NCBI GenBank assembly: GCA_019137195.1
Contig: JAGVSR010000148.1
Location: forward strand, 62,001-126,000
DNA: 64,000 nucleotides
Origin: Alphaproteobacteria bacterium
Lineage (GTDB): Bacteria; Pseudomonadota; Alphaproteobacteria; Rhizobiales; Hyphomicrobiaceae
Direction of reading: 5' to 3'
The stretch's first letter is position 1. Every line of letters begins with the position of its first letter. Both the position numbers and the translations under genes were made by a program. The notes beneath the pieces were generated by a model. It was not told where the DNA came from. It searched no databases and was given only the letters and a program-made list of their open reading frames with translations. This document shows, piece by piece, positions 1,681-11,711 of the stretch.

Positions 1681-2903
1681 TTCAACACCAGCTCGTCGAC
1701 CGACAGGATGGCGCCCATGACCGATAGCACCAGCCCGCCAACCACGAGCCCTATCAAGAGCGTAAGGACGGGGGTGATCAGAGTCGTGATGCGCTTCAGC
1801 TGGCGTGCCTGGGAGGCCTCGTAGATCTCGGCGGCGCGCAGGTGCATGACGTCGAGGTGGCCCGTCTCCTCGCCGATCACGGCCAAACGCAGGAACAGGT
1901 CGGGGTAGAGCCCCGACCGCATCAGCGGTTGCGACAGGGATGCGCCCTGCCTCATCTCGTCGGCGGCCGCCGCCAGGGATGCTCTGTAGGCCCGGTTGCG
2001 GGCAGCGCCCGCTGCGATGGTGACGGCATCGAGAGCGGGAACGCCGTTGCGTACCAGCACAGCGAACGTACGCGCGAAGCGTGCCGTCTCGCGCTCGCGG
2101 ACGAAGCGTCCAACGGCCGGAAGGTGGAGAACGGCACGGTCGATCGCTGCCCGGGTTTCGCTATTGCTGCGGGCAGCGAGAAACCCGGCGGCCAGCAGGG
2201 CGGCGAGTCCCGCAAGGACGGGCCACCAGCTGGCGAAACCGTCATGCGCGGCTGCGAGGGCGCGCAGGAACGCGGGCGGCGTAGCCCCCGCGTCCTCGAA
2301 GATCGGCATGATGGCCGGCAGGAGTAGGCCGGTGATGACACCGGCGGCGACGATCGCCGCTACGACCAACACCGCCGGATAGACGAGAGCGGTGCCGGTC
2401 TGTGCCCGAGCCTCGGCCGTGCGATCGAGGAGCTGCGCCAAGTCCTCGAGCACGGCGGCGAGTGATCCGCCTGCTTCGCCAGCCTTGACGAGGCGCCAGT
2501 AGAATTCCGGGAACGCACCCTTCTCGGCGGCGAGCGCATCGGAGAACGAGCGACCCTCGCGTACGGCGACGAGAAGCGCCTCGTCGATTCGTTTGACCCT
2601 GGCCGGGAGGGCGGGCTGGGCGGCCGCGATGCGCAATGCCTCGTCGATCGGCAGCTCGGCCTTGACGAGGCTCGCGAGCTCGCGCGTGAACATGGCAAGG
2701 TGGGGCGTGGAGAGGCGGCCGCCGCCCATGACCTCGCGCTGCCACCACTTCTCCTCTCGGCCGGGAGCTCTCTCGTCGATCTCGACCGGTACGAACCGGC
2801 GGGCTGCGAGGGCTTCGAGGGCGCCCGCGCGCGATCCGGCGCTTACCTCGCCGATCTCTAGCCTTCCGGTGGCGCCATACGCCCTATAGCTGTAGCGGGG
2901 CAT
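1677..2903 (-). CDS. gspF: type II secretion inner-membrane platform protein GspF
   Basis: A 408-aa polytopic inner-membrane protein of the T2SS assembly platform, with the usual GspF length. Two T2SSF repeats are visible. The first, around residues 70-195, includes FTRELASLVKAELPIDEAL and ends in a transmembrane stretch near 175-195. The second, around 275-400, includes FARTFAVLVRNGVPALDAV and ends in the hydrophobic tail LITPVLTLLIGLVVGGLVL. The N-terminal MPRYSYRAYGATG is typical of the family. Its start lies 20 nt inside gspE, so the two are coupled. Confidence 0.95.
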   Translation of the reverse strand: MPRYSYRAYGATGRLEIGEVSAGSRAGALEALAARRFVPVEIDERAPGREEKWWQREVMGGGRLSTPHLAMFTRELASLVKAELPIDEALRIAAAQPALPARVKRIDEALLVAVREGRSFSDALAAEKGAFPEFYWRLVKAGEAGGSLAAVLEDLAQLLDRTAEARAQTGTALVYPAVLVVAAIVAAGVITGLLLPAIMPIFEDAGATPPAFLRALAAAHDGFASWWPVLAGLAALLAAGFLAARSNSETRAAIDRAVLHLPAVGRFVRERETARFARTFAVLVRNGVPALDAVTIAAGAARNRAYRASLAAAADEMRQGASLSQPLMRSGLYPDLFLRLAVIGEETGHLDVMHLRAAEIYEASQARQLKRITTLITPVLTLLIGLVVGGLVLSVMGAILSVDELVLK

Positions 2904-4680
2904 CGCCGGCTCGCGTCACTCTCAAGACCTCCTCGAGCGTCGTCTCGCCGGCGAGCACCTTGCCGATGCCGTTGGCGATCATCGGCACCATGCCGCCGAT
3001 GCGCGCAGCTGCCTCGATCGAGTGCTCGGTGCCGCCCTCGAGCATGGCGTCGCGCACGCGCTCGTCGACGACGAGCATCTCATAGACGGTGGTGCGTCCG
3101 GAAAAGCCGGTATTCCGGCACGCCGGGCAGCCGCACGCCTCGCGGACGGTGTGGGTCGGGCCGTCCGCAGCGCGTCCGGCCAGGCCCGCCAGAGCGCGGA
3201 TGCGCTCGAGATGTGCGGGCGAGACGGTGCGCGGCTTGGCACAGGCGGGGCACAGCCGACGGACCAGCCGCTGTGCCACGACGGCCTTCAGGCTCGACGC
3301 CATCAGGTAGTCCTCGACGCCCATGTCGAGCAGGCGCATGACGGTCGCGGCCGCTCCATTGGTGTGGACCGTCGATAGCACGAGATGGCCGGTCAGGGAG
3401 GCGCGGATGGCGATCTCTGCCGTCTCGAGATCGCGGATCTCGCCGACCATGACGATGTCAGGGTCCTGGCGCAGGATCGAGCGGAGCGCGTGGGCGAAGG
3501 TGAGGCCGATCCTCGGATTGACCTGGATCTGGTTGACGCCCGCAAGGCGGTACTCGATCGGATCCTCGACCGTGAACAGCTTCAGCTCCGGGCTGTTGAG
3601 CACGGAGAGCGCCGTGTAGAGAGTCGTCGTCTTGCCGCTGCCGGTCGGGCCGGTGACGAGAATGATGCCGTCCGGATTGGCGAACAGGCCTTCGATTGCC
3701 CGTTGCGCCGTGCCGTCGAAGCCGAGCGCAGCGAAATCCAGCGCCACGCTTCCCCGGTCCAGGAGACGCATCACGATGCTCTCGCCGCCCATGGCCGGCA
3801 TGGTCGAGATACGGAGGTCGATGTCGCGTCCGCGCACGTTGGCGCGGATGCGGCCGTCCTGGGGCAGGCGGCGCTCTGCGATGTTGAGCTCTGCCATGAT
3901 CTTGATGCGCGAGGCGAGCGCAGCCTTGAGCGCGGACGGAAGGGTCTCGACCGTGTGCAACACCCCATCGATGCGGAAGCGGACCCGCACCGCGTCCTCG
4001 GCGGGCTCGATATGAATGTCGGAGGCTTCGGTTGCCTGAGCGCGCTCGATCAGGCTCTGCACCAGGCGGATGACGGGCGCCTCGCTCGCCATGTCCTCCA
4101 GGCGGCGCACGTCGTCGGCATCGGCGGCGCCGCTGTCGGTGAGGCGTGCCATCGGCTCCAGCCGCGACACTCCCGCGCGCGGACCGTAGAGACGGTCGAT
4201 ATGCTGGTCGATGTCGGCGGCTGAGGCCAGCCGCACCACGACGGGGCGCTCGACAAGAAACGACAGCGCGGACACGGTCTCGGCATTGAACGGGTCGGCC
4301 ACGGCGACGACGAGCGAGCCGTCCGGCTCGTCGCTGACGGGCAAGATATGCGACTGCTTGAGGAAGGCGTGCTTCACGGCGACGTGGTCCAGGGCAGCCG
4401 ACGGCCAGTCGCCCGGTCTAATGAGGCCGATGCCGAGCATGTCGGCCAGGATCTCGTCGAGCGCGGGCTCGGTGACGAGGCCGAGGCGGGTCAGCACGCG
4501 GTCGAAGCGCTCGCCGGACTGCTGCACGGCGCGACGCGCCCGCAGGACGCCAAGCTCGTCGAGTACGCCTGTGCCGGCAAGCCGGCCCACAAGCGCGGTC
4601 ACGAAAGCCTCGCTCCTGGGATCGGGCAGCGTGCTGGCCGCGGACTTCACCGGCGTCGGCATCGAACTCTCGCTAAGCAT
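2884..4680 (-). CDS. gspE: type II secretion ATPase GspE
   Basis: A 598-aa cytoplasmic ATPase that powers pseudopilus assembly. An MshEN-type N-terminal region (about 20-170) is followed by the AAA-type secretion ATPase core. The Walker A is GPTGSGKTT at about 344-352, the Walker B region DPDIVMVGEIRD at about 406-417, and an Asp box precedes it. A zinc-binding loop with CPAC near 477-480 and CPAC near 518-521 is characteristic of GspE/PilB. It is the first gene of the leftward operon. The ATG at 4680 was chosen; a second Met lies at residue 7. Confidence 0.95.
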   Translation of the reverse strand: MLSESSMPTPVKSAASTLPDPRSEAFVTALVGRLAGTGVLDELGVLRARRAVQQSGERFDRVLTRLGLVTEPALDEILADMLGIGLIRPGDWPSAALDHVAVKHAFLKQSHILPVSDEPDGSLVVAVADPFNAETVSALSFLVERPVVVRLASAADIDQHIDRLYGPRAGVSRLEPMARLTDSGAADADDVRRLEDMASEAPVIRLVQSLIERAQATEASDIHIEPAEDAVRVRFRIDGVLHTVETLPSALKAALASRIKIMAELNIAERRLPQDGRIRANVRGRDIDLRISTMPAMGGESIVMRLLDRGSVALDFAALGFDGTAQRAIEGLFANPDGIILVTGPTGSGKTTTLYTALSVLNSPELKLFTVEDPIEYRLAGVNQIQVNPRIGLTFAHALRSILRQDPDIVMVGEIRDLETAEIAIRASLTGHLVLSTVHTNGAAATVMRLLDMGVEDYLMASSLKAVVAQRLVRRLCPACAKPRTVSPAHLERIRALAGLAGRAADGPTHTVREACGCPACRNTGFSGRTTVYEMLVVDERVRDAMLEGGTEHSIEAAARIGGMVPMIANGIGKVLAGETTLEEVLRVTRAGDAPLQL

Positions 4681-4717
4681 CCGCTACGATCAAATGCATA
4701 CCTATGATGCCCGTAGG

Positions 4718-4727
4718 ATATTATACT
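4718..4727. promoter_or_regulatory. AT-rich -10-like element between divergent gspE and gspL
   Basis: The only AT-rich patch in the 111-nt spacer between the divergent gsp operons. On the minus strand it contains a perfect TATAAT (4725 to 4720), about 40 nt upstream of the gspE start. On the plus strand it reads TATTAT (4719-4724), about 70 nt upstream of gspL. A convincing -35 hexamer is not visible on either side, so direction and use are inferred from position. Confidence 0.35.
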
Positions 4728-4791
4728 TCTCACGGCCGATCAGCGGACCTTGGTCGGCCGGTAAACATCCGCTAGCAGATCGTCTCCGCCC

Positions 4792-5958
4792 GTGGCTCAG
4801 CTCGACCAGACCCTGTCGCAGGACCTTTCCGGTCTCGCTGGCCGCGCCTTCGCGTGGTGGACGGGCGAGCTCAAGGGCCTCGTGCCGCGGCGCGGCGCCA
4901 GGCGCCAGAGCGTGCCGGGGATCGTCATCTCGCTCGAGGACGGCCGGCTTTGGCTCGTCCGCGATCAGCGCGGCCTTCTCGGCAGCGGAGGCGAAAGCCT
5001 GTCGGAGGCCCAGCTTCTCGAGCGCCTGGCGCGTCAGGGCCGCAGTGACCGATCCATGTCTGTCCGCTTGCGCCTTCCCTGGCATACCTGCCTCGTGCGC
5101 CCGGTCTCGGTTCCCGAGCGCGCTGCCGGCGACGCGGCCCGGATCCTTGCACTCGACCTCGAACGGGGAACGCCATTCAGCGCGACGGACGTTTACCAGG
5201 CCCACGTGCGCGAGCCTGGTCCCGCCCGCAACGGTCTGGCGATCTATTCGCATCTGATCGTCAAGCGAGCCTCCGTGGACGCTGCCATTGCACGGCTCGC
5301 CGGTGCGGGTGTCCATGCCGACGCGGTCGATGTCGCGAGCGCGGACGGCAAAGGGGCATTGGCGATCGATTTTCTCGCCTCCCGGGAGGCAGGGACGCTG
5401 GCCGCGGCCCGCCGCTGGCGCGGCACGACGGCGACCTTGGCAGGCGTCGTTGCGCTGCTCGCTGCCGGTGCCGTCTGGCAGTCATTCTCGCAGCACGAGG
5501 CGGCCCTGGCGGCGATCGAGGCAGAGACCTCGGCAGCGAAGACCAGGCTCAAGCAGGCTGAGGCGGCCGAACGTGCGTCGGCAGCCGGGCAGGTGGGCGC
5601 CGCTGCCGTTCACGCCGCGAAGATGTCGCGTCCCGCGCCTGCGCACTTGATCGAGGAGCTGACGCGGCTCCTGCCTGACGATGCCCACCTCACCGACCTC
5701 AGCCTCGACGGCGGGACGCTCTCGATCACCGGGTTTGCCAAGTCGGCTTCGGCACTGGTGCCGGTGCTCGAGCGCTCGGACAGCTTCGCCGAGGCCGCAG
5801 TGCTGTCGCCGTTCACCTACGATGCCGAGCGGGGACGGGAGCGATTCAGCTATCGATTGCGCCTCAAGCACGCACCGGAGCCTGCTCCGGGCTCTTCCGC
5901 CGACGCGCCGGCTGGCGACGGGGCGGCCGACGCGCCGCCGCTCGAGGTGGTGCCATGA
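4792..5958 (+). CDS. gspL: type II secretion protein GspL (PilN-like periplasmic domain)
   Basis: A 388-aa bitopic protein starting at GTG 4792. The cytoplasmic N-terminal part (to about 200) is the actin-like GspL/PilM-type domain that contacts GspE in known systems. One transmembrane segment lies at about 210-230 (TLAGVVALLAAGAVW). It is followed by a periplasmic helix rich in Ala, Glu and Lys and a PilN/ferredoxin-like fold, LIEELTRLLPDDAHLTDL onward. A Pro/Ala tail ends the protein. It leads the rightward gsp operon and overlaps gspM by 4 nt. Sequence identity within GspL proteins is low, so recognition leans on architecture and neighbours. Confidence 0.85.
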   Translation: MAQLDQTLSQDLSGLAGRAFAWWTGELKGLVPRRGARRQSVPGIVISLEDGRLWLVRDQRGLLGSGGESLSEAQLLERLARQGRSDRSMSVRLRLPWHTCLVRPVSVPERAAGDAARILALDLERGTPFSATDVYQAHVREPGPARNGLAIYSHLIVKRASVDAAIARLAGAGVHADAVDVASADGKGALAIDFLASREAGTLAAARRWRGTTATLAGVVALLAAGAVWQSFSQHEAALAAIEAETSAAKTRLKQAEAAERASAAGQVGAAAVHAAKMSRPAPAHLIEELTRLLPDDAHLTDLSLDGGTLSITGFAKSASALVPVLERSDSFAEAAVLSPFTYDAERGRERFSYRLRLKHAPEPAPGSSADAPAGDGAADAPPLEVVP

Positions 5959-6527
5959 CGGGAGCCTTCCGCAGCGTTCTCGGCAAGATTGCCGCACTTG
6001 CGATACTCGTGTCGCTTGCCTGGTTCGTGCTCGCCGCGGTGGTGATGCCGCTTGCGGCGGCGCATCGTGAGCTCGCGGACGGGATCGCCGACGGCCGGGT
6101 CCTTCTTGGCCGGCTCGATGCGGCCGAGCGGCGCCTCGCGGCCAGGGCCGCGGAGGCCGCCGACAAGACCCAGGCGCATGCCAGGCCCGTCTGGCTAGAG
6201 GGCGAAAGTGACGGCATACGGCTCGCCGGTCTGCAGGCGCGGGTGGCAACCATCGCTGGCGCCAACGGGGCACGTTTCGACAGCACGCTCGCGGTCGAGC
6301 CGCGGGACGAAGGGTCGTTTCGTCTGGTCGGCATACAGAGTCAGCTGGCCGTCACGCTAGAGGCGCTGCAACGAATACTGATCGAGCTCGACGCGGCCGA
6401 GCCGCCGCTCATCGTCGACCAGCTTCACGTCTCCGCGCGGGCGGGCGCGAGCCCCGACGTGGCCGAGCTTCTCGACGTGCGACTCACGGTGCGCGGGGCC
6501 ACCCCGCCGGCGGGAGATGGGCCATGA
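5955..6527 (+). CDS. gspM: type II secretion protein GspM
   Basis: A 190-aa protein with one N-terminal transmembrane segment (ALAILVSLAWFVLAAVVMPLA, about 14-34), an alanine/arginine-rich helix, and a ferredoxin-like domain (about 85-180) of the GspM type. GspM partners GspL in the inner-membrane platform. The start and stop both overlap neighbours by 4 nt (ATGA), placing it in a coupled gspL-gspM-gspN/C unit. The ferredoxin-like fold is inferred from the predicted pattern of strands and the position after gspL. Confidence 0.8.
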   Translation: MTGAFRSVLGKIAALAILVSLAWFVLAAVVMPLAAAHRELADGIADGRVLLGRLDAAERRLAARAAEAADKTQAHARPVWLEGESDGIRLAGLQARVATIAGANGARFDSTLAVEPRDEGSFRLVGIQSQLAVTLEALQRILIELDAAEPPLIVDQLHVSARAGASPDVAELLDVRLTVRGATPPAGDGP

Positions 6528-7081
6528 GGAACGGCAAAGCGCGGCGCTCGCCTGGTGCAGCAGCGCTTCTCGCACTGCTGGCCGCCGGACTCGGCGCCAT
6601 CAACTGGCACCTCGCAGGGAGCACAATCGACATCTCGCCGGTGGCATCCGCGGTCGTGGCCGGCGATGCCGCGGCCGGCAATGCGCCGTTCTCCAGTGGC
6701 GGCGCGGCCGCAATCCGCCTGGGCGCCGACCTTTCCGAGACGCTGGCCCGGCCACTGTTCCGGCCGGACCGCCGGCCGCCTCCTTCTGCCGGGACGGCGC
6801 CATCCGATGTGCCGGCACCGGTCGCGGACGTCGGTGCCGCAGCCGGCGATCTCGTGCTCGCCGGCGTGATGCATCACGGCACGAAGGGGAGCCGGGCCCT
6901 GATCCGTGTGGCGGGCAAGCCGGCCGGAGTCTGGGTCGGTGCGGGTGAGACGGTCGGGGGATGGCGCGTGGCTGCGATCGAGCCGGACCGGGTCGCGGTC
7001 GAGCTCAACGGCGCCACGGCGGAGCTCCTGCTGTTCGCCAAGAGATCGAAAGTGGCTGAGCCGGACGGAGCTGCACCGTAG
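6524..7081 (+). CDS. GspN/GspC-like type II secretion protein
   Basis: A 185-aa protein with one N-terminal membrane helix (about 11-30), a low-complexity linker, the segment [16 protein letters not shown], and a small beta domain. That domain ([19 protein letters not shown], then [29 protein letters not shown]) strongly resembles the HR domain of GspC, which contacts the secretin. There is no PDZ domain after it. It could be a short GspC or the GspN-type protein found with gspL/M in alphaproteobacteria. It overlaps gspM by 4 nt and ends the operon. Confidence 0.7.
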
Positions 7082-9303: not shown

Positions 9304-9407
9304 CAACGCGACGGGACTTGCCTCAGCAGGTGGTCACCGTCGAAATTTCGCTGCTTTCCGGAGCTTTAGGCATCGTGCGCCGCCGCCTACTCGCGACCAG
9401 AGGAATC

Positions 9408-11711
9408 ATGATCCGTTCAATCTCCTACGCCTGGCCTGCAGGCGGATGCGGCAACCCTGCCTCAGTGTCGTTTGCGCTTTGCATGCTCATGATCGCAGTT
9501 GTTCTTGCGTCGGCGCTCGGCACCTTGCCAGCGCGTGCCGACGCGGGCATGGCGGCCGAAGCTGCTCCGCCACCGTTGGGCATCACGGTGTTCACGAGCA
9601 CGCGCCACGACGTCTGCTACGACTCGGGCAACGTGGCGGCCATTCGTGCGCTCGCCAAGCGCGAGGTGGAGCGCATCAACCGGTCCGGCGGCACCAACGG
9701 GCGCCGCCTGGTGCTCACCTTCAAGGACGACGACAGCGAGGTGCATAGCACGATCGCCAATCTGCAGAACGCGCTGGCCGATCCGACGACGCTTGCCATG
9801 ATCGGACTTGGAAACTCCAACCGGGCCCAGGCGGCATTCGATGCAGCGGGCAAGGAAGTGTCCGACTCCGGCGTTCCCTTCATCTCCAACATCTCTGTGG
9901 CCGCGATCTTTGCCAAGGCGCCGAATGTTCTCTCGATGCAAGTTTCGCAGGATGAGGAACGTGTGCCGATGCTGGTGCAGTTCCTGAGGCGCTCCGGCTA
10001 CAAGCGCATCGCGTTTGCGGGCATTTCTAGCTCGGTCTTTTCGAACGCGGTCGGCGACGCCCTCAAAGAGGAGCTCGGGGCACTGCTGGTTGCCGATCAG
10101 CGGCTGGCGTCTCTGACAGACGACGACCTCGACGATGCCGCCGTTGCTGCGGCAGTCTCGAACCTGCGCGACAAGGCTCCCGATATGCTTGTGCTGGGCG
10201 TTTCGAATAAGCGGGCCGGCGAGCTATTGGCGGCGCTCGGAGCTGCCGAGGTCAAGCCTGCACTGTTCGCGCCGGGCCGCATCGACAGCCTGCCCGAGGA
10301 CATCATCAGCTCCTATCCCAATGCGATCTATCAGATTGCATGGACCGGGCTTCCCGACGCGGACAACGACCGCGTCCGGCGGCTGGTCTCCGCCGATCCA
10401 CCGGAGACGTGGGTATTCGAGGGGCGCAAGGTTTCCGAAGCGACAGGCTGGACCAACGGCGAGTGCAAGGCGCGCCCCGCGGTGGAGGTGCCGAACCCGT
10501 TCGAAGCCGCCAACCAGCGCGCTATTCAGCTCGGCGCCCAGTTCGCCGACATGATCGCTCTCGTCGCCGAGGCTGCAAATTCAGCGCCGATCGGCAGCGA
10601 TCTGGCATTCCTGCGCCAGCACGTGCGCAAGGAGCTGACGACCACGTATGCTGCAGGACGCGGCGTGTTCCGCGGCAGCTTCGAGACCTGGTCCTTCAAT
10701 CCGAAGACGAGGACTGCCGCGCGCTCGCCCTTCATTGTCGTGCAGCCGAAGGGACTCGGCCGCCCGCAGCTCGCTCCGATCCAGTTCGTGCGCACCAAGG
10801 ACGGCGGGCTGCGCGAGGTCGAGACGCTCTATCTCGATGTGGACCTCGTTCGGGCCAGCCGCATCGACGACAACGACAAGACCTTCATCGCCGAGCTCTA
10901 TCTGTCGATGCGTGCGAGCTCGAAGGCCACGATCAAGGACATCGAGTTCACCAACGCCTACCTCGATCCCGAAACCAACGGACGACAGATCACAGTCGAG
11001 GCCCTGCACGAGGGCGGCGACAGCGATGCCTATCCCTCAGCCATGAGAATCTACAAGGTGACGGGACGCTTCACCTTCGATCCCGATCTTCAACGCTTTC
11101 CGTTCGATACGCAGCGCTTTACGATCGACATGCAGCCGAAGCGCGCCGACCAGCCGTTCGTCGTACAGCCGCCGCCGCTCGATCTGCGCGACAAGAACGT
11201 GTTCACCGATGGCTGGGACGTGAGATCACAGTACGTCGGCTACGGCGACGACGTGGTGCCGCTACTCGACGCGCTCACGCACGAGCCGAGCGTGGTGCCG
11301 TTCTACAAGGCGAGCTTCGTCTGGCTGATGAAGCGGCAAACGACGGACTACTTCCTCCGCGTCGTGGTGCCGCTCGGGTTCATTCTAATCGTCGCCTACT
11401 TCTCGTATTTCATCAACATCAACCACTTCGAGGCAATCGTCACCATCCAGGTGACGGCGCTGCTATCGGCGGTCGCTCTCTACCTCTCGCTGCCGAAGCT
11501 CAATTCGGACGACGCGTCGATTTCCGACCGACTGTTCGTGTTCAACTACATGATGGTCAGCATCATGATCGGCATCTCGATCCTCAGGGTGAGCAGGCTG
11601 GTGGAGGGGCGGCCCTGGCTCAAGCAGGCGCTCGGCGTCGCCCACGTGCTCGGTGTTCCCGCCGTGGTGGCAATGATGGCACTCTACGTGCGCGGCGTGA
11701 CAATGCTCTGA
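9408..11711 (+). CDS. fusion of type I periplasmic-binding domain and pentameric ligand-gated ion channel
   Basis: A 767-aa protein starting at ATG 9408 behind AGAGGA; the frame is open to a TTG at 9318 but without a signal sequence there. Residues 1-46 form a signal peptide ending ARADA. About 55-400 is a type I periplasmic binding fold (LGITVFTSTRHDVCYDSGN, then GSGVPFIS-type and YKRIAFAG strands), as in amino-acid receptors. About 480-645 is a beta-sandwich with the Pro-loop signature FPFDTQ at 564-569. Four membrane helices follow: M1 648-670, M2 about 676-697, M3 about 709-728, M4 about 741-763, with a short M3-M4 loop. M2 aligns with GLIC as Glu675 at -2', Thr679 at 2', Thr683 at 6' and Leu686 at 9', which suggests a cation pore. 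The ligand is unknown. Confidence 0.9.
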   Translation: MIRSISYAWPAGGCGNPASVSFALCMLMIAVVLASALGTLPARADAGMAAEAAPPPLGITVFTSTRHDVCYDSGNVAAIRALAKREVERINRSGGTNGRRLVLTFKDDDSEVHSTIANLQNALADPTTLAMIGLGNSNRAQAAFDAAGKEVSDSGVPFISNISVAAIFAKAPNVLSMQVSQDEERVPMLVQFLRRSGYKRIAFAGISSSVFSNAVGDALKEELGALLVADQRLASLTDDDLDDAAVAAAVSNLRDKAPDMLVLGVSNKRAGELLAALGAAEVKPALFAPGRIDSLPEDIISSYPNAIYQIAWTGLPDADNDRVRRLVSADPPETWVFEGRKVSEATGWTNGECKARPAVEVPNPFEAANQRAIQLGAQFADMIALVAEAANSAPIGSDLAFLRQHVRKELTTTYAAGRGVFRGSFETWSFNPKTRTAARSPFIVVQPKGLGRPQLAPIQFVRTKDGGLREVETLYLDVDLVRASRIDDNDKTFIAELYLSMRASSKATIKDIEFTNAYLDPETNGRQITVEALHEGGDSDAYPSAMRIYKVTGRFTFDPDLQRFPFDTQRFTIDMQPKRADQPFVVQPPPLDLRDKNVFTDGWDVRSQYVGYGDDVVPLLDALTHEPSVVPFYKASFVWLMKRQTTDYFLRVVVPLGFILIVAYFSYFININHFEAIVTIQVTALLSAVALYLSLPKLNSDDASISDRLFVFNYMMVSIMIGISILRVSRLVEGRPWLKQALGVAHVLGVPAVVAMMALYVRGVTML

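Follow-up and report, generated by a model that had tools for sequence, protein, structure and literature searches.

Can a bacterial gene seat a Venus-flytrap sensor on a Cys-loop-type channel within a single chain, and what would such a receptor respond to? The question is raised by a gene of 767 codons plus stop at 9408..11711 (+) of the window, by which we mean the whole stretch of 64,000 nucleotides that was analysed. Its frame is uninterrupted from the ATG at 9408 to the stop codon that ends at 11711. A ribosome-binding-like sequence, GAGGAA, recognised by its consensus only, was read a short way 5′ of the ATG (9400..9405, +). The gene sits after rdgB and faces a LysR-type gene, and both of its ends are internal to one contig of an assembly of 4.04 Mb in 175 contigs. 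Further upstream, at 2884-7081, type II secretion-like genes precede rph and rdgB; these were named by eye from the translations as gspE (-), gspL and gspM-like (both +).

Fusions of this kind are already known. Type I periplasmic-binding-protein (PBP-I) domains fused to pentameric ligand-gated ion channels (pLGICs) were reported in Bradyrhizobium japonicum and Magnetospirillum magnetotacticum by Tasneem et al. 2004, who noted a parallel to the glutamate receptors of animals and suggested that the additional domain aids in concentrating or sensing ligands for chemotaxis (PMC549065). The window protein shares with these proteins, which are also alphaproteobacterial, the order of signal peptide, PBP-I, pLGIC extracellular domain and four helices, a likeness in the order of domains. 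With its PBP-I between signal peptide and pLGIC core, it belongs to the fusion class described by Tasneem et al. The first-pass annotation, which saw in the gene a mix of two animal receptor classes, overrated the novelty of this arrangement, as alphaproteobacterial fusions and the parallel had both been published in 2004 (PMC549065). Jaiteh et al. 2016 removed such extra domains by trimming and asked for experiments (PMC4795631). Our literature search found no experiment on any PBP-fused pLGIC, and according to the DeCLIC papers no pLGIC other than DeCLIC has had its N-terminal domain characterised (PMC9897478, PMC12664993). In the published work found, characterisation is limited to the jelly-roll domain of DeCLIC and extends to no bacterial pLGIC with a ligand-binding flytrap. 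It is well supported that the window protein adds a new member to a known kind of fusion, from a clade that escapes the Pfam channel models.

Folds of the two halves

The chain starts with a predicted signal peptide (residues 1-44; 9408..9539, +). Hydropathy gave a single N-terminal hydrophobic segment at residues 14-44, in agreement with the earlier prediction of a secreted protein, and the putative cleavage site was placed after the Ala-Arg-Ala motif region (residues 42-44). The PBP-I domain follows at residues 55-459 (9570..10784, +) and was recognised by Pfam, by profile search and in an AlphaFold model. Peripla_BP_6 was matched at residues 83-328 with 42.8 bits versus a cut-off of 31.7, and was likewise matched in all 29 clade members. 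When the single sequence was searched against the PDB with phmmer, residues 82-284 matched a LivJ-type binding protein (E 2e-5), and a profile of 19 front halves found LivJ-type binding proteins in the PDB, the best being 4q6w (E 1e-9). Modelled residues 55-458 aligned to LIVBP (2liv) over 323 of 344 residues with a Z of 16.7 (Foldseek, VIA-align). The two-lobed type I fold spans the whole domain, which places it in Peripla_BP_6 and among the LivJ/HAAT-like type, and the type I binding-protein fold that had been read from the letters alone was thus recovered. A flytrap sensor is also common to ionotropic and metabotropic glutamate receptors and taste receptors, and the T1r and mGlu domains align with a Z of about 16. 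However, the transmembrane parts of these eukaryotic receptors differ, so that the likeness is limited to one domain.

The sole cysteines of the mature window protein are Cys70 (9615..9617, +) and Cys353 (10464..10466, +). Both are present in 23 of the 29 members and both are absent in the other six. Because they are present or absent together, the pattern suggests that a disulfide joins them across the PBP domain. Six fused paralogues of the same family (L057-L062) are without both cysteines and without most of the 335-360 stretch; four of these six have Asn at the -2′ position of the pore.

The rest of the chain matches a full pLGIC. An extracellular beta-sandwich that runs to the pre-M1 Arg643 (residues 470-643; 10815..11336, +) was identified by profile matches to GLIC and to standalone pLGICs and in the model. 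It contains the FPFD Pro-loop signature noticed in the first-pass annotation (residues 564-567; 11097..11108, +), of which P565 and D567 are invariant in 29/29 members. The four membrane helices are M1 (residues 646-668; 11343..11411, with the invariant Pro655), M2, the pore helix (residues 671-693; 11418..11486), M3 (residues 705-726; 11520..11585) and M4 (residues 736-766; 11613..11705), all on the + strand. M2 was placed by the GLIC alignment, whereas M1, M3 and M4 were placed by predicted secondary structure and hydropathy, in the case of M1 together with conservation. The hydrophobic peaks lie at 645-672, 673-696, 708-732 and 740-767.

Single-sequence phmmer against the PDB matched ELIC with residues 542-765 (E 5e-6) and GLIC with residues 548-698 (E about 1e-5). 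A profile of 23 channel halves aligned both the extracellular and the membrane domain of GLIC (profile positions 18-304, best E 8e-7) and also matched DeCLIC (E 1.3e-7) and an ELIC/GLIC chimera (E 5.7e-8). Compared to seven standalone pLGICs with hhalign, the channel profile gave 98.9% and an E of 2.4e-17 over 263 columns; one of these standalone proteins, when scanned, had sub-threshold Neur_chan matches. The AlphaFold models were template-free and reached a mean pLDDT of 60 for the full chain and 66 for the channel alone, a modest confidence because only six sequences entered. Modelled residues 470-767 nevertheless matched pLGICs with a Z of about 16 (Foldseek, VIA-align), and GLIC was the first Foldseek match of the channel-alone model (E 1.8e-15). 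Prediction of the single chain, which had been proposed as a check, recovered both folds, and the full pLGIC with four membrane helices stands. As judged from sequence and model both domains are complete, since the sequence, profile and model matches span PBP residues 55-459 and pLGIC residues 470-767.

GLIC and ELIC share the channel core and the pore register with the window protein and are without an N-terminal domain. DeCLIC (PDB 6v4a) resembles the window protein in being a prokaryotic pLGIC and in carrying a large N-terminal domain in the periplasm, and its profile match covers the C-terminal part. However, its N-terminal domain consists of two jelly rolls and has no flytrap (PMC12664993).

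The proposed HMM checks were positive for Peripla_BP, as given above, but negative for the channel, since the Pfam models Neur_chan_LBD and Neur_chan_memb matched 0 of the 29 clade members. The window protein itself had no match above cut-off to the Pfam and NCBIfam channel models, and TIGR00860 LIC was matched by 16 of the 29 members at E up to 0.01. A search of the own genome with Neur_chan_LBD gave no match; the positive controls were likewise unmatched. Because the profile-profile and fold tests were positive, we read the Neur_chan miss as the limited reach of the models. By sequence the clade is divergent, and its proteins are likely annotated as binding protein only.

Gating and ligand

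We propose that the gene product is an inner-membrane receptor-channel in which five identical subunits would form one pore, each with a periplasmic type I Venus flytrap (LivJ/Peripla_BP_6 fold) atop a complete pLGIC. A small solute would occupy the flytrap cleft, and closure of the flytrap would act through a conserved linker on the beta-sandwich and on the pre-M1/M2-M3 interface, whereby the pore would be opened or tuned. Because Glu occupies the -2′ position, the pore would be expected to favour cations. The structural part of this proposal is well supported by sequence and model; it covers the two folds and their order in one chain, the register of the pore, and the fact that the fusion is conserved. 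We consider it rather probable that the pore is homopentameric, probably selective for cations, and opened or tuned when the clamp closes on its ligand.

The main rival holds that gating takes place at the canonical site in the channel's extracellular domain, or is brought about by protons or divalent ions as in GLIC and DeCLIC. The flytrap would then be a mere modulator or scaffold, like the N-terminal domain of DeCLIC, the sole accessory domain characterised, which modulates a channel activated by calcium depletion (PMC9897478, PMC12664993). In favour of this rival, the extracellular domain of the window protein is complete. However, the clade lacks the universal Trp of the beta-2 strand, a part of the canonical binding box, and each of the 29 members compared retains the entire flytrap domain. 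By analogy to DeCLIC such gating is possible, but we find it doubtful here. As the beta-2 Trp is missing, the extracellular domain may also couple differently.

For a comparison of the clefts, PBP domains from the clade, from sister fusions and from 23 standalone binding proteins were aligned; the mapping of the cleft rests on alignments at about 15% identity. The SPSAT motif and the following Glu mark the positions that we take to hold the alpha-carboxylate and the alpha-ammonium of the ligand in LIVBP structures. Most sister fusions outside the class retain both. The window's clade has S-[DEN]-x-S-V in place of SPSAT, a GR/GN/GS turn occupies the Glu position, and Val or Leu replaces the Thr of SPxxT in 27/29 members. 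Ser137 is kept in 26/29, as is the Arg two residues on (R139, 26/29). Among the LivJ-type contacts to an alpha-amino acid (Ser, Thr of SPxxT, Glu), the clade thus keeps Ser alone. The lost contacts argue against an amino-acid ligand and leave the fold assignment intact, so that the description 'amino-acid-receptor-type' in the first-pass annotation fits the LivJ-like fold but is not supported as a hint to the ligand. The clade probably binds a ligand other than the ordinary alpha-amino acids. A small anionic molecule appears more likely, because the acidic partner expected for the ammonium group is lost while R139 is kept beside Ser137 of the cleft; at this low identity it is a lead.

The flytrap might still sense alpha-amino acids, as the sister fusions outside the class may do: profile and model both give it the LivJ fold, those fusions hold SPSAT and Glu at the LivJ ligand positions, and Ser137 is retained in the window protein. 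We regard this as unlikely given the replaced Thr and Glu positions of the clade and the best PDB profile match of the flytrap half, a binding protein from Bordetella whose structure was solved with 3-hydroxybenzoate and not with an amino acid. Taken further, flytrap gating leads to the tentative picture of a widespread clade of flytrap-gated pentameric channels, in which the clamp would have switched from amino acids to a probably anionic molecule and would be locked by a disulfide. If this picture is true, the clade would represent bacterial ionotropic receptors that take their agonist at the added clamp instead of at the classical site of the extracellular domain.

The pore and its conservation

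The GLIC alignment places FEAIVTIQVTALLSAVALY of the window protein on YEANVTLVVSTLIAHIAF of GLIC. This sets E675 at -2′, T679 at 2′, T683 at 6′ and L686 at 9′, the register that the first-pass annotation had assigned to M2 from the letters. The 6′ Thr, the 9′ Leu, the 13′ Ala, the Pro and Asp of the Pro-loop, the pre-M1 Arg and the M1 Pro are all invariant in 29/29 members. Mean conservation among these members fell from 0.85 in M2 and 0.79 in M1 to 0.61 in the extracellular domain and 0.54 in the PBP domain. As conservation is highest in M2 and the key pore residues are invariant, the simplest reading is that selection maintains a working pore. The -2′ residue is Glu in 22, Asp in three and Asn in four members; selectivity may vary between paralogues, since seven of the 29 carry Asp or Asn here.

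It could be argued that the protein does not conduct and that its four helices merely anchor a periplasmic sensor which signals via partner proteins, as the published work found contains no physiological current for any such bacterial fusion. This is very unlikely, given that the pore helix is the most conserved segment, with 6′, 9′ and 13′ invariant, and that no partner gene is conserved. The rdgB, LysR, DoxX and hemW genes of the window do not adjoin the homologues, and among the neighbour genes of the fused channels none is conserved that hints at a ligand or partner. In six of 20 genomes (L098, L103, L106, L109, L112 and L113), genes resembling RND efflux pumps are found no more than 10 kb from the fused channel, close downstream of it in L106, L112 and L113. 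We do not take this as a link between RND efflux and the fused channel, as distances and gene orders vary.

Spread and evolution of the fusion

Matches were found in 72 of the 103 genomes of the family, and at least 52 of the 103 carry the full-length fusion in one frame, counted from the match table as frames aligned over both halves. The full-length homologues are 45-59% identical and in one frame, and most of the named relatives are genomes of Rhizobiales/Hyphomicrobiaceae. Across 397 genomes of the order, a search with the channel profile revealed similar frames in five other families (f175, f191, f198, f203 and f205), of which the frame in f205 is partial (572 aa). In a phylum-wide sample 25 genomes matched, most of them with frames of 650-800 aa. 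The out-of-class proteins that were scanned all matched Peripla_BP_6 (6/6), and one had a sub-threshold match to Neur_chan_memb. The survey of homologues that had been proposed at the outset thus traced the fusion through the family and five others to distant relatives outside the class. When 385 genomes of the class were searched with the full-length protein, the own genome gave the only full-length match, so that the close form of the fusion is, by sequence, concentrated in one family. No relatives were found in viral contigs or in plasmids. A conserved single-gene receptor in about half of the family's genomes offers many natural variants for testing. With these one can ask in what way a pore of the Cys-loop type is controlled by a second, independent ligand domain, and which role such channels have in bacteria.

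The channel tree gathers the window's fused clade into one group (100/99), with a single change of the fused/standalone label. The clade is also one group in the PBP tree (100/100), where the label needs two changes; the best PBP tree does not separate the fused PBPs as a whole from standalone binding proteins, but a single clade of them is not rejected (AU p 0.56). An assembly error that joined the gene of a substrate-binding protein to that of a channel, foreseen in the first-pass annotation as a possible refutation, had no evidence in its favour. It is ruled out by more than 50 genomes and five deposited records with full-length homologues in a single frame and by the nesting of the window protein in one clade in both trees, which confirms that the one continuous frame is one gene. 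The homologues exclude chance as well.

The sister fusions, found outside the class and in families f209 and f212 (L086-L093, L114-L118, L120-L122 and L124), also combine PBP-I and pLGIC. They differ from the window's clade in that they form separate clades of the channel tree and in that most of those outside the class keep the SPSAT and Glu that it has lost. The own genome also encodes a standalone pLGIC of 388 aa that has no N-terminal domain (contig 99, L045:2187-3350, -). Its Neur_chan_memb match of 24.6 bits falls just under the cut-off, and relatives of it are present in further genomes of the family and the order. Within the same order, L120-L122 (families f209 and f212) represent a second, clearly distinct type of PBP-I/pLGIC fusion, the PBP of which is nearer to the fusions outside the class.
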